Positions 8,138 through 47,184 of a stretch of 64,000 nt of DNA are shown here, piece after piece (the stretch's first letter is position 1; the number at the start of each line of letters is the position of its first letter). The notes under the pieces were generated by a model. The model was given only the letters and a program-made list of their open reading frames with translations, was not told the DNA's origin and searched no databases. The DNA is taken from positions 1-64,000 of the forward strand of contig DASUJH010000020.1 of NCBI GenBank assembly GCA_036279355.1, written 5' to 3'. Both the position numbers and the translations under genes were made by a program. Source of the stretch: Gemmatimonadales bacterium. Lineage in GTDB: Bacteria > Gemmatimonadota > Gemmatimonadetes > Gemmatimonadales > GWC2-71-9.

Positions 8138-9622
8138 CTAGGGCGATCCGGCCTCGTCGCCGCCGAGCTGGGTCTCGCTGCCCGCCGTCGCGAGATCGAC
8201 GCCGCCGGCGCCGAGCAGGCGGAAGAGCGCCCACTGCGCCCGCTTGGCGGTGCGCGCGCGGGCGCCGTTATAGAGTGCGCTGATCACCAGCACGCCGTCG
8301 CGGCGGCCGAGGTAGCCGGCAAGCGCGGAAACGCTGTCCAGCGTGCCCGTCTTGGCGCGCACGACGCCCGGCGCCAGTACCCCGCGCCCGAGCCGGCGCA
8401 GCGTGCCCATGCCGTTGGCCGGCAGCAGCAGTGGGAACTCCTCGGCTCCGGGCCGTCTCGGCAGCTGCGCGAGGTAAAGCGCCTCCGTGCGTGCGGCCAC
8501 CCGGTCATCGGGTGAGAGACCGCTCCCGTCGTGCAGCTCCACGACCGCCGCCGGGCCAACGACCTGGCGCACGTGTCGCGTGAGCCGCTCTGGCCCGTGG
8601 CCCGCACCAGCCGCCCAGCGCAACAGCAGCTCGGCGCCGACGTTGAGGCTCCGCCGGTTTACTTCGCTCGCAATCGAGTCGAATGGAGGGGACGACACCT
8701 CGGCCAGCACGGCGGGCGCGTCGTCCGGACTCGTACGCGGGGTGACGCGACCGCGGTCCCAGGCGATGCCGGCCCGCTCGAGCGCCGCGCCCCATGCGCA
8801 TTCCAGCACCTGCTCCGGGTCTTCCGCCACCGCACTGAAGCCCTGGGGGCGCGCAGACAGGCCGATGCTGCCCGTGATGGTCCACCCACCGTCGCCGGTT
8901 GCCGCCATGTGAAGGTGGCGCGCGCTGCCCGCGGCGGTGCTCGCCTCGACGCGCACCATCGACTCCAGTCCCGCCGGGATCGTGAAGACGACTTCCGGCG
9001 GGTCGCCCAGCTTTCGGCCCGGACGCGCCGTGATGCTCACCGTGTTCTCGTGCAGTGTCACGGCGCCGATCGGCGGGGCGTAGAGCTCGCCTGGGTAGCG
9101 GCCGTCCCAGGCCGCGGGAATCACGGTCGCCGTGCGCCCGTTAGCGCTCGTGGTCGTGAGCGCGCCGATAAGCGTGCGCACCCCGAGGGCGTGGAGCTGA
9201 GCCGTGAGCTGGCGGAGCATTCGGCCGGACCGCAGGGTGCGCTCGAACGTCGGGTCGCCGTTCAGCTCGAGGGTCCAGGCTCCCTGCCACGTCCCGGCGG
9301 AATCGACGTGCCCGAGCCCGACCACCCGTGTCGGCAGCGTCGCGTCGGGGCCCACGATGCTCCGGGCGAACCCGGTCGTGAAGATCTTGGCCGTCGAGGC
9401 CGGCAGGAGCGGCTCGTCCGGATTGGCGGACCAGAGCACCTCGCCCGCCGCGTTGGCGATCGCGACGCCCCACTGCCCCGGTGCTGCCTGCGTCGCGTGA
9501 CCGTACCACTGGTCCAGATCGCGCGCGAGGGCCGCCGGAATCGCCTGTGCGGCGCCCGGGCGTGGGCACAGAAAGAGGGCTGCTCCCCAACAAAGGGAGA
9601 AAATCGCGATCGTGCGTCGCAT
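8138..9622 (-). CDS. dacB: D-alanyl-D-alanine carboxypeptidase, PBP4 type (peptidase S13)
   Basis: A 494-residue periplasmic penicillin-binding protein. The start at 9622 gives a signal peptide (MRRTIAIFSL, a hydrophobic core, PGAAQA). The serine-peptidase triad is intact: SxxK as STAK at about residues 76-79, SxN as SLN in NRRSLNVGAELLL, and KTG in RAKTGTLDSVS. A long insertion between SxxK and SxN is typical of class C PBP4. The enzyme trims pentapeptides and opens cross-links in peptidoglycan. It is transcribed divergently from mreB, another cell-wall gene, across a 320-bp shared region. Confidence 0.92.
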   Translation of the reverse strand: MRRTIAIFSLCWGAALFLCPRPGAAQAIPAALARDLDQWYGHATQAAPGQWGVAIANAAGEVLWSANPDEPLLPASTAKIFTTGFARSIVGPDATLPTRVVGLGHVDSAGTWQGAWTLELNGDPTFERTLRSGRMLRQLTAQLHALGVRTLIGALTTTSANGRTATVIPAAWDGRYPGELYAPPIGAVTLHENTVSITARPGRKLGDPPEVVFTIPAGLESMVRVEASTAAGSARHLHMAATGDGGWTITGSIGLSARPQGFSAVAEDPEQVLECAWGAALERAGIAWDRGRVTPRTSPDDAPAVLAEVSSPPFDSIASEVNRRSLNVGAELLLRWAAGAGHGPERLTRHVRQVVGPAAVVELHDGSGLSPDDRVAARTEALYLAQLPRRPGAEEFPLLLPANGMGTLRRLGRGVLAPGVVRAKTGTLDSVSALAGYLGRRDGVLVISALYNGARARTAKRAQWALFRLLGAGGVDLATAGSETQLGGDEAGSP

Positions 9623-9942
9623 GGATGAGTTGAAGACGGTACTGGCAGACCGGAACGCCGGCGCCTCGACCGGCATGACGGTACGCGATCGACCCCGAAA
9701 TCAGCAAGCCCCGGGCCAGTGATCGCTGCGAAACCTTGCATGGCATGGAACTTGGTATCGCATGCCCCGCGTGTTCGGCGCCGCGCCGCCTCCGTCTGCG
9801 TGAGCTCGAATGCGCATCGTCAACCCTCGCGTGAATCGCGAGCCCCAGGGACATCTGCACGGCTCCGCGCTCGTCGCCCGCCTGCGTTGCTCTCTATCGA
9901 AAGACTCGGCCGCCGCGCCGCCAGCCCCGAAGGACGTACGTC
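9623..9942. promoter_or_regulatory. Divergent intergenic region dacB / mreB
   Basis: A 320-bp non-coding stretch between two divergent cell-wall genes, so it must hold the promoters of both. I see a 6-bp inverted repeat CTCGCG-TGAAT-CGCGAG (9826-9842), a possible operator, and a 10-bp palindrome GACGTACGTC (9933-9942) that ends at the mreB ATG. The mreB ribosome binding site AAGGA lies about 8 nt before its ATG. No strong -35/-10 pair can be named for either direction. Confidence 0.45.
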
Positions 9943-24932: not shown

Positions 24933-26552
24933 CTACGGCGCTTGGACCGCACCCCGGCCCGGCGCCAACGCACGGAGGATGGTGCGCCCGTATCGCTCCG
25001 CGATCACCGGCCCAACGCCGGGCACGGCGGCCAGCGCCTCGGGACCATCCGGCGGATGCAGCGCGAGGCGCACGAGGGTCGGCGGCTCCAGCAATGCGCC
25101 TCCCCACGCACCTGGTCGACCGGCAAAGGCGCCCTGAAGGCGCCGCAGTCGCTCGGCCGCCGCAGCCGGCAGCCGGGCAGCCACCCGCGGGGGCGCGCAG
25201 CCGTCGCAGCCGGCGCAGCGGTGCGGTGCGCGCTCGCCGAAGTACCCGAGCAGCGCGGCGCGGCGGCAGCCGGCGCCGCTGAGGTAGCGCTCCATCACCT
25301 GTAAGCGCGCGGCGGCGCGCTGCCGGCGGCGCAGCACCGGTCGCCAGTTCACCGGCCCGCGGTCGGGGTCCAACTCGCCGCGCAGCCGCTCGACGGAGGC
25401 CGCAACGCTGCTCGGCAGCCGGCGCGCCGCGGTCGGCTCGCGCCACGCCCGCTCCACGAGAACCGGGGCCGGAAAGGTCACGTCGAGCTGGCGGCGATGG
25501 ATGGCGGTGTCGTCCGGCCGCCAGAGCACGACGCAGCGGCTCAGTCGCCCGTCGCGCCCCGCGCGCCCCGCCTCCTGGAAGTAGGACTCGGGCGTCGCGG
25601 GCACGGTCCAATGCACGACAAGGCGGACATCAGGCTTGTCGATGCCCATCCCGAATGCGCAGGTGGCGACGACGACCTTGAGCTCGTCTGCCAGGAATCC
25701 CCGGAGCACCGCTGCCCGACGCTCGCGCGGGAGCCCCGCGTGGTAGGCCGCGGCGCGAAAGCCGGCATCGCGGAGCGATGCGGCGACCCGCTCGGTGCTG
25801 CCCCGGGTGGGCGCATAGACGAGGGCCGTGCCATCATCGGTGTCGAGCAGCGCGTTCAGCCGGGTCAGGCGCTCGCGCTCGTCCCGCACCCGAATGACGC
25901 CGAGCCAGAGGTTCGGACGGTCGAACGAGCCAAGCTGCTGCTCGCATCCCTCCGGCCCGCGGCCGTAGCGACGGCCGAGCGCGAGCGCCTTGACGATCGC
26001 CTCGCGAGTGTCCGGCGTGGCGGTGGCGGTAAGTGCCAGCGCCTGCGGCTGGCCCAAGCGCCAACGCGCCTCGCGGAGCCGGCGGTAACTCGGCCGGAAG
26101 TCCTCGCCCCATTCGACGATGCAGTGCGCCTCGTCCACGACGAAGAGAGTGGGCACGCCGAGGATTGCGCGCAGTTGGCCGGCGCTCCGGGCCAGCCGCT
26201 CGGGCGAGAGATAGAGCAGCCTGAGCGCACCGCTGCCGGCGCGGGTAAGAAGCGCCGACTGCTCGGCGGCATCGAGACCGCTGTGTAACGCGGCGGCGGG
26301 AATGCCCCGCGCGCACGCCGCCGCAACCTGGTCCTGCATGAGAGAGATGAGGGGGCAAACGACGATCGCGATTCCACCTTTGGCGAGCGCGGGCACCTGG
26401 AAGCAGATCGACTTCCCGCCGCCCGTGGGCAGCACCGCAAGCACGTCGCGCCCGGCCAGCACGGCGTGAACCACCCGCGCCTGCGCCGGCCTGAACGCAT
26501 CGTATCCGAAGTGGTGGCGCAGCAATCGCGCTGCATCGCCGAATGAAGACAC
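24933..26552 (-). CDS. RecQ-type ATP-dependent DNA helicase
   Basis: A 539-residue superfamily 2 helicase: [14 protein letters not shown], Walker [36 protein letters not shown] (ISQWG in E. coli RecQ), TATATP, and motif [14 protein letters not shown] RecQ zinc region follows with cysteines in [16 protein letters not shown] and CAGCDGC, then an HRDC-like or HhH C terminus ([17 protein letters not shown]). It unwinds DNA in recombination and repair. The start is a GTG inside a large hairpin just downstream of the beta-barrel gene; no ATG, GTG or TTG in frame lies closer upstream. Confidence 0.92.
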
Positions 26553-26580
26553 CCCCGACCATTGCGGAATCGGGGGCGTC
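26547..26580 (-). terminator. Hairpin covering the recQ start codon
   Basis: On the minus strand GACGCCCCCGA and TCGGGGGTGTC pair (10 of 11) around a 12-nt loop, followed by TTCATTC. It probably ends transcription of the beta-barrel gene upstream, but the recQ GTG (26552-26550) is inside the right arm, so it may also control recQ translation. Confidence 0.55.
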
Positions 26581-26623
26581 CGGTGCTACCAGGATCGCGC
26601 GCATCGGCGCGCGGAAATGCGCT

Positions 26624-27301
26624 CTACTGGCCGCCGAACTGGACCCCGATCGTGGCGAGGATCAGGCTCGCGTTCGACGTACCGCCGATGTTGTCGAGCG
26701 TACCGCTGAAGATGTTATGGAAGCGCCCTTCGGCAAAGAACGTCACCGGGCCGTTTCCGAAGTCGAGACCGGCGCCGCCGTTGAGCCCGAATTTGGTCAC
26801 GTGGCGGTTCCTGAGCGACTCGTCGTCGGGGTTGATCTCGAGCCGGTAGATCCCGGCACCGCCGAGGAGATAGGGCTTTACCACCGTCTCGGTCGATGTT
26901 GGAATCGTGAAGACGATATCGGCTGTGCCATCGATGATCTGGGTCTTGCCTGGAAAGCCCGGGATCCCGGGCTCGAGCTTCAACTGCGCATAGTTGCCAT
27001 CCACCTGGAAGCCGATCGGGCTGCCCGACGGCCGGAAGCGGACGTATGCCTGTCCATGCCAACCCAGCTTGTCCTGGCTATTGAGCGTGCCGAGCGGGAC
27101 CGCTAGTCCGCCGCCGATGCCGAACTTGACCGGAGAGGTCGAGCCGCCCTCGTCCGTGGTCGTGTACGTCGTATCCAGGTGGGTCCGCGTGTAGGTGGTG
27201 TCCGTTCCGGACCGCGTTGTCGACTGCGCCATTGCGGGCGTAGCCGGAAGAGCCAAGCAGATCGCCAGGGGAAAAGCCACAGACCGCCAACCGCATCGCA
27301 T
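26624..27301 (-). CDS. Outer-membrane beta-barrel protein, paralog 1
   Basis: A 225-residue exported protein with signal peptide (MRCGWRSVAFPLAICLALPATPAMAQ), a Thr-rich spacer, then an 8-strand-like barrel: GIGGGLAVPLG, VRFRPSGSPIGFQVDGNYAQL, VVKPYLLGGAGIYRLE, KFGLNGGAGLDFG, FFAEGRFHNIF, TIGVQFGGQ. The same order of motifs recurs in the two genes upstream. GGAGG lies 8 nt before the ATG at 27301 (2 nt before an alternative ATG at 27307). Function unknown; small barrels of this type can be structural or adhesive. Confidence 0.8.
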   Translation of the reverse strand: MRCGWRSVAFPLAICLALPATPAMAQSTTRSGTDTTYTRTHLDTTYTTTDEGGSTSPVKFGIGGGLAVPLGTLNSQDKLGWHGQAYVRFRPSGSPIGFQVDGNYAQLKLEPGIPGFPGKTQIIDGTADIVFTIPTSTETVVKPYLLGGAGIYRLEINPDDESLRNRHVTKFGLNGGAGLDFGNGPVTFFAEGRFHNIFSGTLDNIGGTSNASLILATIGVQFGGQ

Positions 27302-27452
27302 ACCCATATCCTCCCGAACGGAATGTCCAGACGGCAGCACTCCAGCCGTCCGGCATGACCCCGGCCGGATTTCGGTCCGGGGCAGGCGAAGGGAAGGTGT
27401 GAGATGTAGTTAAGTCGGCGCAGCGACGCCGGACACAATCCCGCGGTGGAAA

Positions 27453-28022
27453 TCAGGGCCCGGAGAACTTGAACCCGGCCGTGATCGGAATGAGATGCGC
27501 GGAGCCGTCGCCCGAGAGGCCGGCACCGAACACGTTGTGAAAGCGGCTCTCGAGGAAGAGCGAGCCGGGGCCGAAGAGCCGCAGGTTGATGCCCGCGCCG
27601 CCGTTCAGGCCGAAGAGGGTCGACGTGTCGTCGGGCCCCCGGCTCCGAAAGCTGTAGACGCCGGCGCCGCCGATCACGTAGGGAATGACCTTGGATGTCC
27701 GGGTTCGACCGAACTCGTAGAGGATGTTCGCGGTGCCGTTGAACAGTTCGCCGCCTACGGGAACGCCGGCGGAGCCGAATGGCCGGTAGGTGCCGTCGAG
27801 CTGGAAGCCCAAGCGCCCGAAGGGGTGAACCTGCAGCAACCCCATGCCCTGCCAGCCCGAGCCGAAGGAAGCTGATCCCAGGCCCAGGTCCGCGGCGGCG
27901 CCATTGGCCGGCAGCGTAAGTCCGCCGCCCAAGCCGAAGGTGAACGGCGACTGGGCGCTGGCGGTGGCCGCCGCCGCAAGGCTCACCACGAGGCCCAACG
28001 CGATCGTGCGCACTGCACCCAT
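27453..28022 (-). CDS. Outer-membrane beta-barrel protein, paralog 2
   Basis: A 189-residue exported barrel protein: signal peptide (MGAVRTIALGLVVSLAAAATASAQ), then GLGGGLTLP, QVHPFGRLGFQLDGTY, VIPYVIGGAGVYSF, FGLNGGAGINLRL, FLESRFHNVFG and ITAGFKFSGP. These match paralogs 1 and 3 motif by motif. GGAGG lies 8 nt before the ATG. It is separated from both neighbours by 150-200 bp with hairpins, so it is probably a separate transcription unit. Confidence 0.8.
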   Translation of the reverse strand: MGAVRTIALGLVVSLAAAATASAQSPFTFGLGGGLTLPANGAAADLGLGSASFGSGWQGMGLLQVHPFGRLGFQLDGTYRPFGSAGVPVGGELFNGTANILYEFGRTRTSKVIPYVIGGAGVYSFRSRGPDDTSTLFGLNGGAGINLRLFGPGSLFLESRFHNVFGAGLSGDGSAHLIPITAGFKFSGP

Positions 28023-28159
28023 CTCACGCCCTCCTTGCCGGAAATGCCGCCTCGGAGATGCCGCTTCGAGCCGATGTGTGGCGCCGCCGGTTTGGGGGCG
28101 CGCCGTTATTCAACGATTCACAATTGTGCACCGCCCGTCAAGTCCGCGCCCGGGGCCCG

Positions 28160-28193
28160 AAAGCAAACCGCCCCACCCCGAGGGGTGAGGCGG
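28160..28193 (-). terminator. Terminator after beta-barrel paralog 3
   Basis: On the minus strand CCGCCTCACCCC and GGGGTGGGGCGG form a near-perfect stem (28168-28193) followed by TTTGCTTT. It begins 24 bp after the stop codon of paralog 3. Confidence 0.8.
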
Positions 28194-28217
28194 ATGCCCG
28201 AGCACGTGCCCGCGGTG

Positions 28218-28778
28218 TTACCGGCCACCGAATTTGACGCCCACCGTGATCGGAATGAACTTCACGTCCGAGCCGGTGACGAACACGTTATGGAACCGGC
28301 CCTCCGCGTAGATGGTCGCGCCGCTCACGCCGAAGTCGAAGCCCGCACCGGCGTTGAGGCCGAACTTGGTGTCCGAGCCCGACGAGCCGTCAGTGAACTT
28401 GCTCTTCAGGTTGTACACCCCGCCGCCGCCGATCAGATACGGGCGGATCCGGGTTTCCTCAGACACCGGGAAGTCGTACACCACGTCGGCAGTACCGCTG
28501 ATGATCTGATCCTTGTCGAGCCCGAACGTGTTGGTCTTTGCCTTGAACTGCTGATACATGCCGTCGATCTGGAACCCGACCGGGCTGGCCGGCGGAGTGA
28601 ACCGCACGAGCGCCTGCCCGTTGAATCCGAGCTTGAGGCCATCGCTCGTCGACCCCGTCGGGATCGACACCCCGCCACCAACGCCGAACTGCACCGGCGT
28701 CTGCGCCTCGGCGGTAACGGCGCCCGCCACGACCAGACACCCCGCCGCCATCATAGTTCTGATCATGCCTCTCATCAT
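28218..28778 (-). CDS. Outer-membrane beta-barrel protein, paralog 3
   Basis: A 186-residue exported barrel protein: signal peptide (MMRGMIRTMMAAGCLVVAGAVTAEAQ), then GVGGGVSIPTG, VRFTPPASPVGFQIDGMYQQF, RIRPYLIGGGGVYNL, KFGLNAGAGFDFG, IYAEGRFHNVF and ITVGVKFGGR. The start at 28778 has AAGGAG 5 nt upstream. It is the only one of the three paralogs with a sigma54-type promoter in front (28846-28861), and it ends at a good terminator, so it forms a single-gene unit. Confidence 0.82.
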   Translation of the reverse strand: MMRGMIRTMMAAGCLVVAGAVTAEAQTPVQFGVGGGVSIPTGSTSDGLKLGFNGQALVRFTPPASPVGFQIDGMYQQFKAKTNTFGLDKDQIISGTADVVYDFPVSEETRIRPYLIGGGGVYNLKSKFTDGSSGSDTKFGLNAGAGFDFGVSGATIYAEGRFHNVFVTGSDVKFIPITVGVKFGGR

Positions 28779-28845
28779 CCCATCTCCTTGTTTCCGGTCA
28801 CTGTCGCGATCGCCACGAGCAATCTGGGAAAGTGCCGCCGCCCCG

Positions 28846-28861
28846 TGCAAGCTTTCTGCCA
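28846..28861 (-). promoter_or_regulatory. Sigma54 promoter candidate for beta-barrel paralog 3
   Basis: The minus strand reads CTGGCAGAAAGCTTGCA: the -24 element TGGC (28861-28858), exactly 7 nt, then the -12 element TTGCA (28850-28846), the sigma54 spacing (GG-N10-GC). The leader to the ATG would be about 58 nt. A 6-bp inverted repeat GGCCGG/CCGGCC lies about 60-80 bp further upstream. Confidence 0.6.
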
Positions 28862-28926
28862 GCGGCGGCGCGGAGCCAAGTCGTTGGATGGGCGGTGAAA
28901 GGGGCGGCGGGAGCCAGTTTGGCCGG

Positions 28927-29124
28927 CTATTCGTCCCGGCCGTCGGACACGCTGTCTCGCGCGCGGGCCAGCCGGCGGCGGCGAGTCCGCTCGATGAGAC
29001 GGAGGGCGAGCGATGCAGCGAGCAACGCGATGGCAATCCACACTGCAAGCGGTTGCTCGGTGATGACTGCCAGGACCGCTACGGTGACGCCGGCCATGCC
29101 GAGGCCGTGCTTCCATCGGTTCAT
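28927..29124 (-). CDS. Small two-helix membrane protein
   Basis: A 65-residue protein with two predicted membrane helices (GLGMAGVTVAVLAVI and AVWIAIALLAASLALRLI) and an Arg-rich tail. Its ATG overlaps the enoyl-CoA hydratase stop by 4 bp, which supports it as a real, translationally coupled gene and the last one of the long acyl-CoA operon. No family is recognised. Confidence 0.6.
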   Translation of the reverse strand: MNRWKHGLGMAGVTVAVLAVITEQPLAVWIAIALLAASLALRLIERTRRRRLARARDSVSDGRDE

Positions 29125-29879
29125 CGCTGGAGGAAGCGCGCGACCTGGGTTGGGAAGTCGGGGGTAGCGCGTGCGACCGCGTTGACCCGGGCCCCGAGCC
29201 GGATTCCATCTTCGACCCCGCGGCCGTCGAGGTCGTAGAGCAGTTGCTTCGTGAGGGCGAGCGCGGTGCCGCTCGCGTCGGCGAGCCCGGCCAGGATCTG
29301 CTCGGCATCGGCATCGAATCGATCGTCCGCGAGCGTGCGCGACACGAGCCCAAGCGCCTGCGCCTCCGCTGCCGACAGGAGGCGCCCCGTGGCGACCAGA
29401 TCGAACGCGACCCGCTCCCCGACCAGGCGGCGCAGGAGCGCCATCACCATCGCCGGTACGAAACCGCGTTGAATTTCGGGATAGCCCAGCCGCGCACTCT
29501 CGGCGGCAAGGACGAGGTCGCAGGCGGTGGCGAGTCCACAGCCGCCGGCAAGTGCATTTCCCCTGACCAACGCGACGATCGGCTTGGGTAGCCGGCGGAA
29601 CTTGAGGAAGAGCGTGCCCAATTCGAGCGCCGCCGCCTCGTTCTCGTCGAGCGTGCGATCGACCGAGGCGAGCAGCTCCGCGAGGTCGGCGCCGGCGCAG
29701 AAATCCCGCCCGGCACCGGTCAGGGCCACGACTCGCACGCCGGCATCGAGCTCGGCATGGTCGATGGCGGCGTGCAGCTCGGCCACCAGCGCCTTGTCCA
29801 GCGCATTGCGCTTGGCCGGACGGTCGAGGGTGAGCGAGAGCACCCCGTCCGCGCAGGCGCGCCGCAGCGAATCACTCAT
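29121..29879 (-). CDS. Enoyl-CoA hydratase/isomerase family protein
   Basis: A 252-residue crotonase-fold protein: RPAKRNALDKALVAEL, the oxyanion-hole segment GAGRDFCAGADLAELL, and VRGNALAGGCGLATACDLVLAAESARLGYPEIQRGFVPAMVM with a Glu at the usual catalytic position. It hydrates an enoyl-CoA; the neighbouring carboxyltransferase and AtuA-type genes suggest a branched or terpenoid-derived substrate such as a glutaconyl-CoA, but that is inference. It overlaps the genes on both sides by 4 bp. Confidence 0.87.
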   Translation of the reverse strand: MSDSLRRACADGVLSLTLDRPAKRNALDKALVAELHAAIDHAELDAGVRVVALTGAGRDFCAGADLAELLASVDRTLDENEAAALELGTLFLKFRRLPKPIVALVRGNALAGGCGLATACDLVLAAESARLGYPEIQRGFVPAMVMALLRRLVGERVAFDLVATGRLLSAAEAQALGLVSRTLADDRFDADAEQILAGLADASGTALALTKQLLYDLDGRGVEDGIRLGARVNAVARATPDFPTQVARFLQR

Positions 29880-41168: not shown

Positions 41169-41273
41169 GATTGCCGCCCCTGGTCGGTGCCGCGTGGAAT
41201 CTAAGAGCCCGGGCATCGATGTCATCCGCGGGCGAGTTTGCTGGACAATCTGGCATGGGCCCGTACATCCTTC

Positions 41274-41308
41274 CGGGACAGAAAGTCCCGCATCGCCGAC
41301 TGTGGCGA
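41274..41308. promoter_or_regulatory. Two inverted repeats upstream of sigma54 promoter
   Basis: CGGGAC-AGAAA-GTCCCG (41274-41290) and TCGCC-GACTGT-GGCGA (41293-41308) lie roughly 35-70 bp upstream of the expected transcription start, where NtrC-type activators can bind. Assignment as activator sites is an inference. Confidence 0.45.
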
Positions 41309-41319
41309 GGCAAAGGGGC

Positions 41320-41335
41320 TGGCCACTTTCTTGCC
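41320..41335 (+). promoter_or_regulatory. Sigma54 promoter of the glycan/signalling operon
   Basis: CTGGC-CACTTTC-TTGCC: TGGC (41320-41323), 7 nt, TTGC (41331-41334), matching the sigma54 -24/-12 consensus in sequence and spacing (GG-N10-GC). The start would be near 41345, leaving a leader of about 29 nt before the glycosyltransferase ATG. An NtrC-type activator with GAFTGA is the last gene of the operon. Confidence 0.65.
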
Positions 41336-41373: not shown

Positions 41374-42498
41374 ATGCGGATAGCGCTGGTCACCGAGTTC
41401 TACTATCCCCACCTCGGCGGCGTCACCGAGCACGTCCACAACCTGGCCAAAGTGTTCAACGCCGCGGGACACCACACGATCGTCATCACGTCGCACATGC
41501 GGATGCCGGTGGGCTCGCCCGATGCGCACGAATACGCGCGGGACGAGCCGTTCGTGCGACGCGTGGGCACGAGCCGGGTGATCTACAGCGCCGGCTCGTT
41601 CGCGCGGGTGACCACCGGGTGGCGGCTCCGGCGCCAGCTCAGAGATCTCTTCCGCGCCGAGAAGATCGACGTGGTGCACATCCACGGCGGCCTCGCGCCG
41701 ACGTTCGGCGTCATCGCGCCGTTCCCAGCCTGGGACCTCGGCCTGCCGGTCGTGGCGACGTTCCACTCCTGGTTCGCGAAGTCGCACCTGCTGCGCACGT
41801 TTCGGCGGATCGCGCAGTGGTCAATCGACCGCCACGCCGCGACGATTGCCGTGAGCCAGCCGGTGGTCGACGCGCATGCCCGCTATCTCCACGCCAATTG
41901 GGAGATCATCCCGAACGGTGTCGATACGGACTTCTTCGCCTCCGGCGAGGGCGCGCCGGCGGCTCCGCGGCCCACGCTCCTCTTCCTCGGCCGACTCGAC
42001 CCGCGAAACGGGCTCGAGACCGTGTTGCGTGCGATGCCCGCAATCCTCGACCGCCACCCGACGACCCGCCTGGTCGTGGCCGGCGACGGTCCCCTCCGGC
42101 CGCTGTACGAGCGCCTCGCCCGGCCGGTGGCCGGCCACGTCGAATTTCTCGGCCGGGTGAACGGCAACCGGCCCGACGTGTACGGCTCGGCCGACATCTA
42201 TCTCTGCCCGACGACCAAGGCATCGTTCGGCATCACGCTGCTCGAGGCCATGGCGTGCGGCACGCCGATGGTAGTCTCGGACATCACGGGGTTCCGGGAG
42301 CTGGTGGACGGCGGCTCGGAGGCCGTACTGGTGCCGAAGGGCGACCCGGCGGCCTGGGCCTCGGCGACCGGCGACCTGCTCGGCGATCCGGCGCGCCGCG
42401 CCGCGATGAGCGCGGCCGGCCGCGCCAAATCCGCCGAATTTGCGTGGCCCCGCGTGGCCGACCGGGTGCTGGCGGTGTATCGCCGGGTGCTCGCGTGA
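41374..42498 (+). CDS. Family 4 glycosyltransferase (PimA-like)
   Basis: A 374-residue GT-B enzyme: N-terminal EFYYPHLGGVTEHVHNLAKVF, sugar-nucleotide domain with IPNGVDTDFF, LLFLGRLDPRNGLETVLRAMP, and the GT4 motif KASFGITLLEAMACGTPMVVSD. It resembles phosphatidylinositol-mannoside-type and capsule glycosyltransferases that use GDP- or UDP-sugars; the exact sugar is unknown. It is the first gene of a five-gene plus-strand operon, and its stop shares a base with the deacetylase ATG (TGATG). Confidence 0.9.
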   Translation: MRIALVTEFYYPHLGGVTEHVHNLAKVFNAAGHHTIVITSHMRMPVGSPDAHEYARDEPFVRRVGTSRVIYSAGSFARVTTGWRLRRQLRDLFRAEKIDVVHIHGGLAPTFGVIAPFPAWDLGLPVVATFHSWFAKSHLLRTFRRIAQWSIDRHAATIAVSQPVVDAHARYLHANWEIIPNGVDTDFFASGEGAPAAPRPTLLFLGRLDPRNGLETVLRAMPAILDRHPTTRLVVAGDGPLRPLYERLARPVAGHVEFLGRVNGNRPDVYGSADIYLCPTTKASFGITLLEAMACGTPMVVSDITGFRELVDGGSEAVLVPKGDPAAWASATGDLLGDPARRAAMSAAGRAKSAEFAWPRVADRVLAVYRRVLA

Positions 42499-43196
42499 TG
42501 ATCGCCGGCGCCGCAGCGGTGCTCGCGACGGCCGGCGCGCTCACGGCCTACGGCGCGATCGAGCCCAACAACTCGCTGTTCGGCCCCGTCATCGGCCGCG
42601 GGCCGCGCGAGCGCAGCGTGTATCTCACCTTCGACGATGGCCCGAACGCCGAGGCCACGCCGCGGATTCTCGATACCCTCGCCGCCGCCGGCGTCCCGGC
42701 CGCCTTCTTCATGGTGGGCCGCCATGTGCGGCGCTTCCCGGAGCTCGCGCGGGCCGTGGCGGCACGCGGCCACGCCGTCGGCAACCATACCGAGTCGCAC
42801 GTCAAGCTGCACCGGCTCGGTCCCCGGCGGATCGATGCGGAGGTGGGTGAGGCACACGAGGCGATCGTCGGCACCACCGGAGTTGCCCCGCGTGCGTTCA
42901 GGGCGCCGCATGGATACCGGAATCCGTTCGTCTTCCGCGCGGTGCGCCCGTTCGGCTATCGGGTGTTCGGCTGGACCTTCGGCGTGTGGGACACCGCCCG
43001 CCCCGGCGCCGACGAGATCCGCCGTCGAGTGCGCGCGAAGCTCCGGCCCGGCGCCGTGCTGCTGCTCCATGACGGCGACGGATACGACGTCACGGGCGAT
43101 CGCCGCCAGACCGCGGAGGCGTTGCCCGGGATTCTCGAGGACGCGCGGGCGGCTGGCTATACCTTCCGCCCGCTCGGGGAGTTGCTGGCATCGTGA
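42498..43196 (+). CDS. Polysaccharide deacetylase (NodB domain)
   Basis: A 232-residue CE4 protein with a short hydrophobic N-terminal segment (signal or anchor). Metal and catalytic motifs: TFDDGPN (Asp46/Asp47), GNHTESHVKLH with the two metal-binding histidines, RAPHGYRN, and LLHDGDG. It removes N-acetyl groups from a glycan or from peptidoglycan. It is translationally coupled on both sides by TGATG overlaps, between a glycosyltransferase and a flippase-like protein, which suggests it modifies the product they make. Confidence 0.9.
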   Translation: MIAGAAAVLATAGALTAYGAIEPNNSLFGPVIGRGPRERSVYLTFDDGPNAEATPRILDTLAAAGVPAAFFMVGRHVRRFPELARAVAARGHAVGNHTESHVKLHRLGPRRIDAEVGEAHEAIVGTTGVAPRAFRAPHGYRNPFVFRAVRPFGYRVFGWTFGVWDTARPGADEIRRRVRAKLRPGAVLLLHDGDGYDVTGDRRQTAEALPGILEDARAAGYTFRPLGELLAS

Positions 43197-44146
43197 TGCG
43201 CCCGCGGTGGTCGCCGGCCCGGTGGCTCCTGATCGCCGTCGTCGTTGCGAGCGTGCCGTTCGCCGCGCGCTTCCTGCTGCGCTTTCCCTGGGGCCGCACC
43301 GTCGACGCGATCGCTGACGCCGACTGGATGCTGCTCGCGGCGGCGAGCCTGATGAATCTCGTCTCGCTCGCCTTCAAGGGATGGGCCTGGCATCTGCTGC
43401 TCCGGGCCTGGGCGCCGCATCGCTGGCGCAGCGCCGAAGCAGGCACCTTCGTCGGCGCGGCCGTAAACGCGGTGAGCATCTCGGTGAGCGGCGAGGCCGT
43501 TCGGCTCGAGCGCGTGGCACGGCGCGACGGCGTACCGCTCGTGGCGGGAGCGGCCTCGCTGGTCTGGGCCCGGATCATCGAGGCACTCGCGTTGGTGGTG
43601 TTTCTTGCCGTGTCGCTCCTCTGGCTTCCGCCGGGGCGTTGGACGGTGCCGGCCGAGCTCGTGGCCTGGGGCATCGTTGTAGTGATGATTGTCTGCATCC
43701 GCCTCAGGGTCTGGACCTGGCTCGCCGAGCGGCTGCCGTCGCGCTGGCGGAGCCGGCTCACGCCCGCCATGCCGGCGGGGCGCCTCTACCTCCTGGCGCC
43801 GCTTTCGTTCTCGACCGCAAACTGGTTCGCGCAGTGGCTCACCTACCACTGGGCCATCGCGGCGACGCACGTCTCGACGTCCCCCGCGGTGTCGCTCGTG
43901 GCACTGGTCGCGGCGAACGTCGGCGGCATCCTACGGCTCACCCCGGGCAACGTGGGTGTCCTGCAGTTCTCGCTCATCTTCGGCATGGAAGCGTTTCACA
44001 TCCCCACCGATCAGGCCCTCGCGGCTGGCCTCGCGCTGCAAGCGGTGCAGGTCCTGCCCGTGCTCCTCGTCGGCGTCGGCCTCGTGGGCGTCGAAGGATT
44101 CCGCCGGAGGAGTGCCAAGCGCGCGGAGACGGTCGGGGCGATCTGA
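43196..44146 (+). CDS. Lysylphosphatidylglycerol synthase TM-type (flippase-like) membrane protein
   Basis: A 316-residue polytopic membrane protein of the LPG_synthase_TM (UPF0104/AglD-like) family: about 7-8 helices, with the conserved SISVSGEAVRLERVARRDGV, ASLVWARIIEALAL and LRLTPGNVGVLQFSLIF segments. Relatives move or modify lipid-linked sugars or phospholipids. The ATG at 43196 shares a base with the deacetylase stop. With the glycosyltransferase and deacetylase it suggests a glycolipid or lipid-linked glycan pathway. Confidence 0.85.
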   Translation: MRPRWSPARWLLIAVVVASVPFAARFLLRFPWGRTVDAIADADWMLLAAASLMNLVSLAFKGWAWHLLLRAWAPHRWRSAEAGTFVGAAVNAVSISVSGEAVRLERVARRDGVPLVAGAASLVWARIIEALALVVFLAVSLLWLPPGRWTVPAELVAWGIVVVMIVCIRLRVWTWLAERLPSRWRSRLTPAMPAGRLYLLAPLSFSTANWFAQWLTYHWAIAATHVSTSPAVSLVALVAANVGGILRLTPGNVGVLQFSLIFGMEAFHIPTDQALAAGLALQAVQVLPVLLVGVGLVGVEGFRRRSAKRAETVGAI

Positions 44147-44233
44147 GCAATGGGACGGGTCGAAGCACATCCATTTCCGCACGTGGGCGCCGAACGGACG
44201 CGATCTGAGCTTGACGGCTCGGAGCGGCCGTCG

Positions 44234-45681
44234 ATGGCGCTCGCGCGCCGGCTTGCGATCCTCACCGCGGTGCTCGCCCTGCTGCTGGTGCTCGGCGCCA
44301 CGGAGATCGCGCTCTCGTGGTCGGCGCGCTCGCGGCTCGAGGATTTCCGGGATGACGCCGTGTCGCTCTCGACCACGCTCGCGGCCCTGTTGAGCGACGT
44401 GGCACCCGACGGCGATCCCCAGCTCCTCTCGCAGGGGCTGGAGGAGTGGTCCCTCCGCCGGCTCGGTCCGACCCGGCGCGCCTGGGTGTATGTGAGCCGC
44501 GCGGGCACGCTCTCCGCGGTAGCGGCCAGCGACACCGAGGAGAAGGCGCCCGACGAAGCCGACTACCAGGCGCTCACCCAGGTCACCACGGTGGTCATGC
44601 AGCGTGGCGGCCGCGACCCCGGCTGGCAGGTCGCCGCGCCGCTCGGGCGTCCGGAGCATCCGTTCGGCGTACTCGACATTCACGTGTCCACGCGCCGGCT
44701 GGAGGAGTGGAGCCGGGTCGAGCGGCAGCGCGCCTATCTCGCGGCCGTGAGTGCGGCGTTGCTCGTGGCGCTCGGCGTGGCGCTGCTCACGCGGAAATGG
44801 GTGGGGCGACCACTCGCGGAGCTCGGCAAGGCCATGGCCGGCGCGCATGGCGGCGCGGAGGGATCGCCGCCCGCGCCGGAGATCGGTCCCCACGAATTTC
44901 GGCTGCTGGCCCGGCGCTACAATCGCCTGCGCGACGCGCTGGCCGAGCGGGAGCGCGAGAGCCAGGCGCGCGCGGCGCTGCTCGCGCTGCAGGAGCGGGC
45001 GCGCGGGCTCGACCGGCTCGCGCTCGTACAGGAGACCGCCACCGCCTTTGCGCACGAGATCGGCACTCCGCTCAACACGGTGAGCGGGCATTTGCAACTG
45101 CTGAGGGACGATCTTCGGCACGCCGGGCAACCGGACGCGCTCGACCGCGTGCGGCTCCTGCTGGGCCAAATGGACCGGGTCGCCGGGATCGTGCGCGCCG
45201 GGCTCGACCGCGGCCGCTGGCCGGAGCCGTACGTGCGTACCGCCGATCTCACCGAAATCGCCGAGCGCATCCTGCGCTTCCTCGAGCCGGCGTTCAACGA
45301 CGCGGGAGTGATCGCGCGGCTCGAGCCGACCCGGGCCGCCCGGCCTGTCGCGGTGTGCGACCCCGCGCAGGTCGAGCAGATCCTGCTGAACCTGCTCAAG
45401 AACGCGATCGAGGCGCTGCCACCCGGCGGCCTCGTGACGGTCTCGACCGGCGCGGCCGACGGCGGTGTGTACGTGGACGTCGCCGATGACGGCCCCGGCC
45501 TGGCGCCCGAGGCGCAGGCAAATCTCTTCAAGCCGTTCGCCACTACCAAAGGCGCGGCCGGCACCGGGCTCGGCCTCGCGGTGAGCCGCCGGCTCGCACG
45601 CGGACTCGGCGGCGAGCTGAGCCATCTGCCGGCGAGCCGCGGCACCCGCTGGCGCCTGAGCTTGCCGGGCGCGGAGCCGGC

Positions 45682-45685
<4 letters not shown>
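44234..45685 (+). CDS. Membrane sensor histidine kinase (NtrB/AtoS-like)
   Basis: A 483-residue kinase with two membrane helices (AILTAVLALLLVLGATEIAL and YLAAVSAALLVALGVALLT) around a periplasmic sensor of about 150 residues, then a HAMP-like linker, H-box TATAFAHEIGTPLNTVSGHLQLL, N-box NLLKNAIEALPPGG, DDGPGLAP, and KPFATTKGAAGTGLGLAVS. The start at 44234 (GGAG 9 nt upstream) is chosen over an ATG at 44150. It overlaps the following response regulator, its evident partner. The signal is presumably in the envelope. Confidence 0.9.

Positions 45686-47184
<1,499 letters not shown>

Follow-up and report, generated by a model that had tools for sequence, protein, structure and literature searches.

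The minus-strand element CTGGCAGAAAGCTTGCA in front of an outer-membrane beta-barrel gene of this Gemmatimonadales genome is very likely a working sigma54 promoter, enhanced by a pair of upstream dyads and driven by the NtrC-type regulator encoded at 45682. The barrel gene and the glycan operon that contains this regulator gene would thus probably be turned on by one regulator in this lineage. The window, i.e. the whole stretch of 64,000 nucleotides that was analysed, is contig C20:1-64000 of a genome of 3.25 Mb in 60 contigs. The barrel region contains the following features.

28846..28862, minus strand: sigma54 -24/-12 element CTGGCAGAAAGCTTGCA (GG-N10-GC), by sequence match
28835, minus strand: predicted transcription start, 12 nt downstream of the -12 C, placed by sigma54 promoter geometry
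28911..28925, minus strand: putative proximal activator dyad CGGCCAAACTGGCTC, 49 bp upstream of TGGC and 33 bp from the distal dyad
28944..28958, minus strand: putative distal activator dyad GAGACAGCGTGTCCG, 82 bp upstream of TGGC, overlapping the 3' end of a 65-aa ORF
28218..28778, minus strand: outer-membrane beta-barrel protein (PF13505), 186 aa, with a signal-peptide-like start and AAGGAG before the ATG
27453..28022, minus strand: second barrel paralog, without such a promoter in the upstream search
26624..27340, minus strand: third barrel paralog, without such a promoter, true start uncertain; no Pfam match, aligns in A1
28927..29124, minus strand: 65-aa hydrophobic, probably membrane ORF without a Pfam match, whose 3' end carries the distal dyad
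29121..29879, minus strand: upstream gene of the enoyl-CoA hydratase/isomerase family (Pfam), used as synteny marker
28168..28193, minus strand: terminator-like hairpin 3' of the barrel gene, a weak call (two such sites in the 3-kb region, against a shuffle mean of 1.8)

Sigma54 promoters follow the consensus YTGGCACG-N4-TTGCW, with a leading Y, and start transcription about 12 nt downstream of the -12 element. At 28862-28846 we found GG at -24 and GC at -12, 10 bp apart, within TGGC-N7-TTGC. CTGGCAGAAAGCTTGCA agrees with the consensus at 11 of its 13 specified positions, against 9 of 13 for the glycan-operon site, and the preliminary description was right in calling it the closer match. The published form of the consensus is TGGCACG-4N-TTGC(T/A), as given in the available text of PMC9765219. 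The barrel ATG lies at 28778; the site does precede it, at a distance of 67 nt rather than the 68 bp first given. A GGCCGG/CCGGCC repeat, which had been pointed out further upstream, is present at 28941-28921, where it overlaps the stop codon of the 65-aa ORF and the first bases of a dyad. The informative enhancer is the dyad pair at 28958-28944 and 28925-28911, and not this repeat.

It had also been claimed that the other two barrel paralogs lack such a site, and this held: within 300 bp upstream, neither has an exact TGGC-N7-TTGC or a tandem dyad. For the paralog at 26624, three possible starts were searched, with 300 bp each, and a single match, imperfect in the -12 GC, was seen at 27267-27253, in or just before the start of this paralog. 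The ATG of the 65-aa ORF overlaps the stop of the enoyl-CoA hydratase gene, and a similar ORF end is seen by eye in syntenic relatives. The closest relatives of the barrel in named records carry the label Gemmatimonadales or Gemmatimonadaceae. In the related genome G139 (L221), the barrel gene adjoins the counterpart of 24933-26525, and the window has two extra paralogs (26624-28022) in between; these were either gained in the lineage of the window or lost in G139, as judged from gene order.

The genome encodes RpoN (E 1e-63) and has 15 matches over the cut-off to the Sigma54_activat domain, 12 of them strong. The genome-wide search that had been proposed for TGGC-N7-TTGC sites gave a divided answer. 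TGGC-N7-TTGCW is not over-abundant: the genome has 33 matches to it and as many (33) to the reversed pattern. Since it equals this control, the count was dropped as evidence; position alone is informative. Twelve of the 33 sites lie in intergenic DNA at most 300 bp upstream of a start on the same strand, as compared with 0 of 26 for an N8 spacer, 2 of 15 for N6 and 2 of 33 for the reversed pattern (N7 against N6 plus N8, 12/33 versus 2/41; Fisher p = 7e-4). Gene starts were taken from a simple codon-usage caller trained on the window, with about 3 kb fetched around each site. At the control rate (2/41), about 1.6 of the 33 N7 sites would be expected in such a position by chance. Most of the 12 gene-proximal sites are therefore probably real, with one or two due to chance. 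The presence of rpoN and this spacer-specific enrichment upstream of genes support the claim that a sigma54 promoter precedes the barrel gene, as far as sequence can tell. The stricter TGGCAYR-N4-TTGCW had no match in this genome.

Several of the other sites deserve mention. The L103 site, in front of an smpB-like gene, also has a sigma70-like TTGACC-N18-TATCAT by eye, and some of the 12 gene-proximal sites, such as this one, may not be genuine. At L099 (contig C20:197224), a sigma54-like site lies 43 bp before a gene whose product has, by reading, a PEP-CTERM-like tail, which suggests that a PEP-CTERM-like surface system could be under sigma54 control too. Within the window, TGGCCCGGGGCTTGCT at 9703-9718 (minus strand) lies 80 bp before the called start of the gene at 8138-9622; the latter encodes a secreted protein that reads by eye like a D-Ala-D-Ala carboxypeptidase, and there is no dyad above background at this site.

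The glycan operon lies 12 kb from the barrel promoter, and both carry the same kind of paired control sites.

41242..41256, plus strand: distal dyad TGGACAATCTGGCAT, from the operon-site comparison
41275..41289, plus strand: proximal dyad GGGACAGAAAGTCCC, from the operon-site comparison
41320..41335, plus strand: sigma54 element TGGCCACTTTCTTGCC, conserved in three loci of genus g13
41374..44146, plus strand: glycosyltransferase (GT4), polysaccharide deacetylase and flippase-like membrane protein, by profile matches
44150..45685, plus strand: sensor histidine kinase, by profile matches
45682..47184, plus strand: NtrC-family response regulator (Pfam) with a receiver, an AAA+ domain with GAFTGA in its sequence and a Fis-type HTH

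With its receiver, its AAA+ sigma54-interaction domain containing GAFTGA and its HTH, the protein encoded at 45682 has the make-up of an NtrC-family sigma54 activator. A search of 102 genomes from the family for orthologs of the first gene of the operon gave 33 matches (E 1e-60 or better), and 30 of these loci were read. A sigma54 element of the form TGGCCR-N2-TTCTTGCC is common to the window and three g13 loci (G139, G012 and G043). The same four loci have, upstream of the glycan gene, two 15-bp dyads near GGGACAGAATGGCCC, 29-33 bp apart. The proximal and distal dyads lie 50 and 80 bp before TGGC in G139, 84 and 113 bp in G012, 50 and 83 bp in G043, and 30 and 63 bp in the operon of the window. 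The pair (spacings of 26-37) is absent from 26 of the 30 loci read, all of them outside g1 and g13. Among these 26, a TGGC-N7-TTGC lacking dyads occurs in L207, and weaker strings in a few others; in many of the 26 the upstream bases resemble, by eye, the end of another gene.

The whole operon is found in the same order in G139 and G012, with a regulator of 74-76% identity that is nearly unchanged in its HTH; the G043 contig (3,099 bases) ends ahead of the expected position of the regulator. In G139 and G012, another sigma54-like site, likewise with upstream dyads (at 62 and 81 bp), stands directly after the regulator gene (L220, about 8035, minus strand; L222, about 2605, minus strand). The gene behind it encodes a short protein with an exported-looking start, which in G139 has a peptidoglycan-binding domain. 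In G012, the magnesium transporter gene mgtE lies just beyond this short gene, and in the window mgtE is itself next to the regulator, on the opposite strand. The peptidoglycan-binding protein had no tblastn match in the fetched part (about a third) of the window's genome.

The preliminary description had proposed the barrel promoter as a target of the regulator, and comparison of its dyads with those of the operon speaks for this. With the operon-site matrix, the strongest tandem pair in the 64-kb window was the glycan operon's own, and the second independent pair was that of the barrel promoter. With a matrix built from g13 only, and window base frequencies as background, the barrel pair scored 24.5 and the window's own operon pair 24.9. 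Elsewhere in the fetched sequence of this genome (1.05 Mb, including some overlap), no pair scored above 17.7. The barrel pair, lying 49 and 82 bp before TGGC, has nearly the spacing of two of the three g13 glycan loci, and it places predicted activator sites upstream of the sigma54 element. Combining the dyad pair with TGGC-N7-TTGC, we scored 23 sites in 803 kb: the operon reached 25.6, the barrel promoter 23.4, C2:129708 10.0, and the others at most 3.3. As decoys, 162 sites with a wrong spacing had a mean of -4.2 (sd 3.8) and a maximum of 9.1. The first matrix, which included the window's own operon, gave the barrel pair 22.6, a value not reached in 60 Markov-simulated windows (3.84 Mb; maximum 20.3). 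The distal barrel dyad alone is weak (9.5 bits, reached by 2% of 350-bp chunks), and the score of the proximal one is reached by about 0.14% of such chunks.

These tests were partly post hoc, as the motif was first noticed by comparing the barrel promoter with that at 41320 and the distance ranges of the composite were set after seeing the sites; independent of this are the proximal dyad at the barrel, the fixed spacing and the use of a matrix from another genus. By sequence, the barrel pair matches the conserved promoter of the regulator's own operon, and the barrel promoter ranks second of 23 sites with a matrix from another genus, which supports the proposal that the regulator activates it and ties the surface protein to the glycan operon. 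Another motif, GACAGNNNGTCC, which occurs 20 times genome-wide and in 3 cases upstream of a TGGC-N7-TTGC site, was dropped because it had been chosen post hoc; its third case, 5 bp upstream at the PEP-CTERM-like gene, fails under the later matrix. The site on contig C2:129708 (L239, about 9708, plus strand) has a single good dyad, TGGACATTTTGGCCC, which scores 16.1 bits and lies 122 bp upstream, and precedes a gene for a large membrane protein with a weak, below-cut-off match to PMT_2. It is possibly a third target of the regulator.

Both in the window and in nine relatives (eight loci of g13 and one of g4), the barrel gene comes after the gene for enoyl-CoA hydratase. All eight g13 syntenic loci found (L003, L004, L005, L006 and L032-L035) have a TGTGA-N6-TCACA site, matched at 9 or 10 of 10 positions, with a TANNTT hexamer 21-22 nt downstream. 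In CRP class II promoters, the CRP site lies about 21 nt before the -10 hexamer, and we take the g13 layout to be of this class. The background of TGTGA-N6-TCACA is low: in 739 kb of the window's genome, a stretch of 330 bp has about 0.004 sites, and 45 kb of sequence from g13, the G139 barrel promoter included, contained a single one. There is no CRP-type site (at least 8 of 10) within 330 bp upstream of the window's barrel gene, and none at the g4 locus L007. A CRP-family protein, with SRETVSR as a motif, is still encoded in the window's genome. For G135 and G140, which also belong to g13, there was no barrel match at E 1e-25.

The dyad pair is absent from all nine syntenic orthologs found (eight in g13, one in g4), in which conservation of the window's sigma54 site was not found either. 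A TGGC-N7-TTGC in L004 and a weaker GG/TTGC string in L007 both come without a dyad pair and were taken as chance; for L007, TTGATT-N16-TACCAT is the better reading by eye. Because none of the nine orthologs has the pair and eight carry a CRP-type site, the regulatory link between barrel and glycan operon is, on the loci compared, specific to this lineage. The barrel promoter element is unconfirmed by conservation, because the searches yielded no other genome from the genus of the window.

We considered the possibility that the sigma54 promoter is real and that its dyads are bound by another NtrC-type activator with a similar motif. The motif was assigned to the regulator through genomic association, and the genome has 12 strong sigma54-activator domains, so that the 11 others could recognise something similar. 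Yet, the glycan operon has the pair in front of it both in the window and in three g13 loci, and in the window, G139 and G012 this operon ends with the regulator gene. In G139 and G012, the gene that follows the regulator has dyads upstream as well, and the next best element in the scanned part of the window's genome, C2:129708, is far weaker. Another activator is thus unlikely.

Transcription of the barrel gene from a sigma70-type promoter, in the form of a CRP class II promoter that has decayed and uses CACTTT as its -10, with the sigma54-like string being due to chance, would agree with the layout of the eight g13 orthologs, and CACTTT does stand, by eye, at the spot that aligns with their -10. 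It would also agree with the ten bases 3' of TTGCA, CGGGGCGGCG, which contain no A or T at all, the lowest value among 14 sites compared (the next being 1 and 2); such an all-G+C stretch is unfavourable for melting. This reading does not account for the dyad pair, which chance does not explain, and the CRP-type site is missing upstream of the window's gene. A strict-consensus sigma70-like promoter was also absent from 26400-29400, which is weak evidence since shuffles average just 0.3. We consider a sigma70-type promoter very unlikely. The arms of an 8-bp inverted repeat, GCCGCCGC/GCGGCGGC, flank the sigma54 site, and the short upstream ORF ends about 65 bp before it, as would be the case if the element were a terminator or attenuator hairpin of the enoyl-CoA hydratase transcript. 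However, there is no T run, the element was not called a terminator, its folding is no better than that of shuffles (z -0.9), and a hairpin would leave the dyads and the spacer-specific enrichment of sites unexplained; this extremely improbable reading was rejected.

The sequence itself shows the -24/-12 element, the dyad pair with its spacing and position, the agreement of this pair with the operon promoter of other genomes, and rpoN. With a sigma54 promoter enhanced by the dyad pair as the preferred reading, we infer binding, phosphorylation, sigma54 dependence, start site and signal as follows. The histidine kinase encoded at 44150 would phosphorylate the regulator encoded at 45682, which would oligomerise on the dyads at 28958-28944 and 28925-28911 and reach RNA polymerase-sigma54 at 28846-28862 through DNA looping. 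ATP hydrolysis would then open the promoter, with a transcript beginning near 28835. The same regulator would act on the pair and sigma54 site of its own operon (41242-41335), so that one envelope signal would raise surface glycan modification and this barrel jointly.

On balance, we lean towards a swap of regulator class: the barrel gene, which has a CRP/sigma70-type promoter in the neighbouring genus, would have come under a sigma54 promoter with the paired enhancer of the local two-component system and joined the regulon of the glycan operon, while the regulator of the neighbouring genus appears to drive an exported peptidoglycan-binding-domain gene instead. This provides a concrete, testable case of a surface protein that changes regulator class between genera with gene order kept, and bears on how sigma54 promoters with enhancers arise. 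It also predicts, for a sigma54 two-component system of Gemmatimonadales, the regulator, its DNA motif and a small regulon.

The literature searches brought up no work devoted to sigma54 promoters in Gemmatimonadales; the available text of PMC3162934 mentions Gemmatimonadetes only in its references, and the other match concerned Arctic methane metabolism. A search for NtrC response regulators in Gemmatimonadota returned no matching literature, and among the matches listed for a looser search none dealt with Gemmatimonas. The best-scoring NCBIfam models for the regulator encoded at 45682 were AtoC, NtrC and ZraR, with 434, 416 and 404 against curated cut-offs of 714, 558.6 and 760, and the PEP-CTERM regulator model TIGR02915 gave 344 of 502.6. 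Because these scores are below the cut-offs, the protein is no named member of these families.

According to the available text of PMC3844500, the enhancers of sigma54 promoters lie mostly about 70-150 bp upstream (elsewhere in that paper, 80-150 bp) and contact the polymerase by looping. The barrel promoter resembles these RpoN/NtrC-family systems in its -24/-12 element and upstream activator sites, looping being a feature of the known systems. It differs from them, as they are described there, in that its proximal dyad lies only 49 bp upstream of TGGC, and that of the window's glycan operon 30 bp. Nla28 of Myxococcus xanthus is an NtrC-type activator proposed to use tandem sites before the sigma54 promoters of several loci (PMC9765219, available text). 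Tandem sites before sigma54 promoters are shared with that regulon, but the sites of Nla28 are, according to that paper, imperfect repeats of 8 bp whose spacers vary, whereas here we find two 15-bp dyads 29-33 bp apart. Sigma54 has been argued to be a controller of the bacterial exterior (Francke et al. 2011, PMC3162934). In line with this argument, as set out in the available text, the predicted targets described here are envelope and surface genes; the pairing of barrel and glycan operon and the present motif do not figure in that text. Sigma54 promoters with NtrC-type enhancers are of a well-known kind, and the part of wider interest is the change of regulator class between genera.
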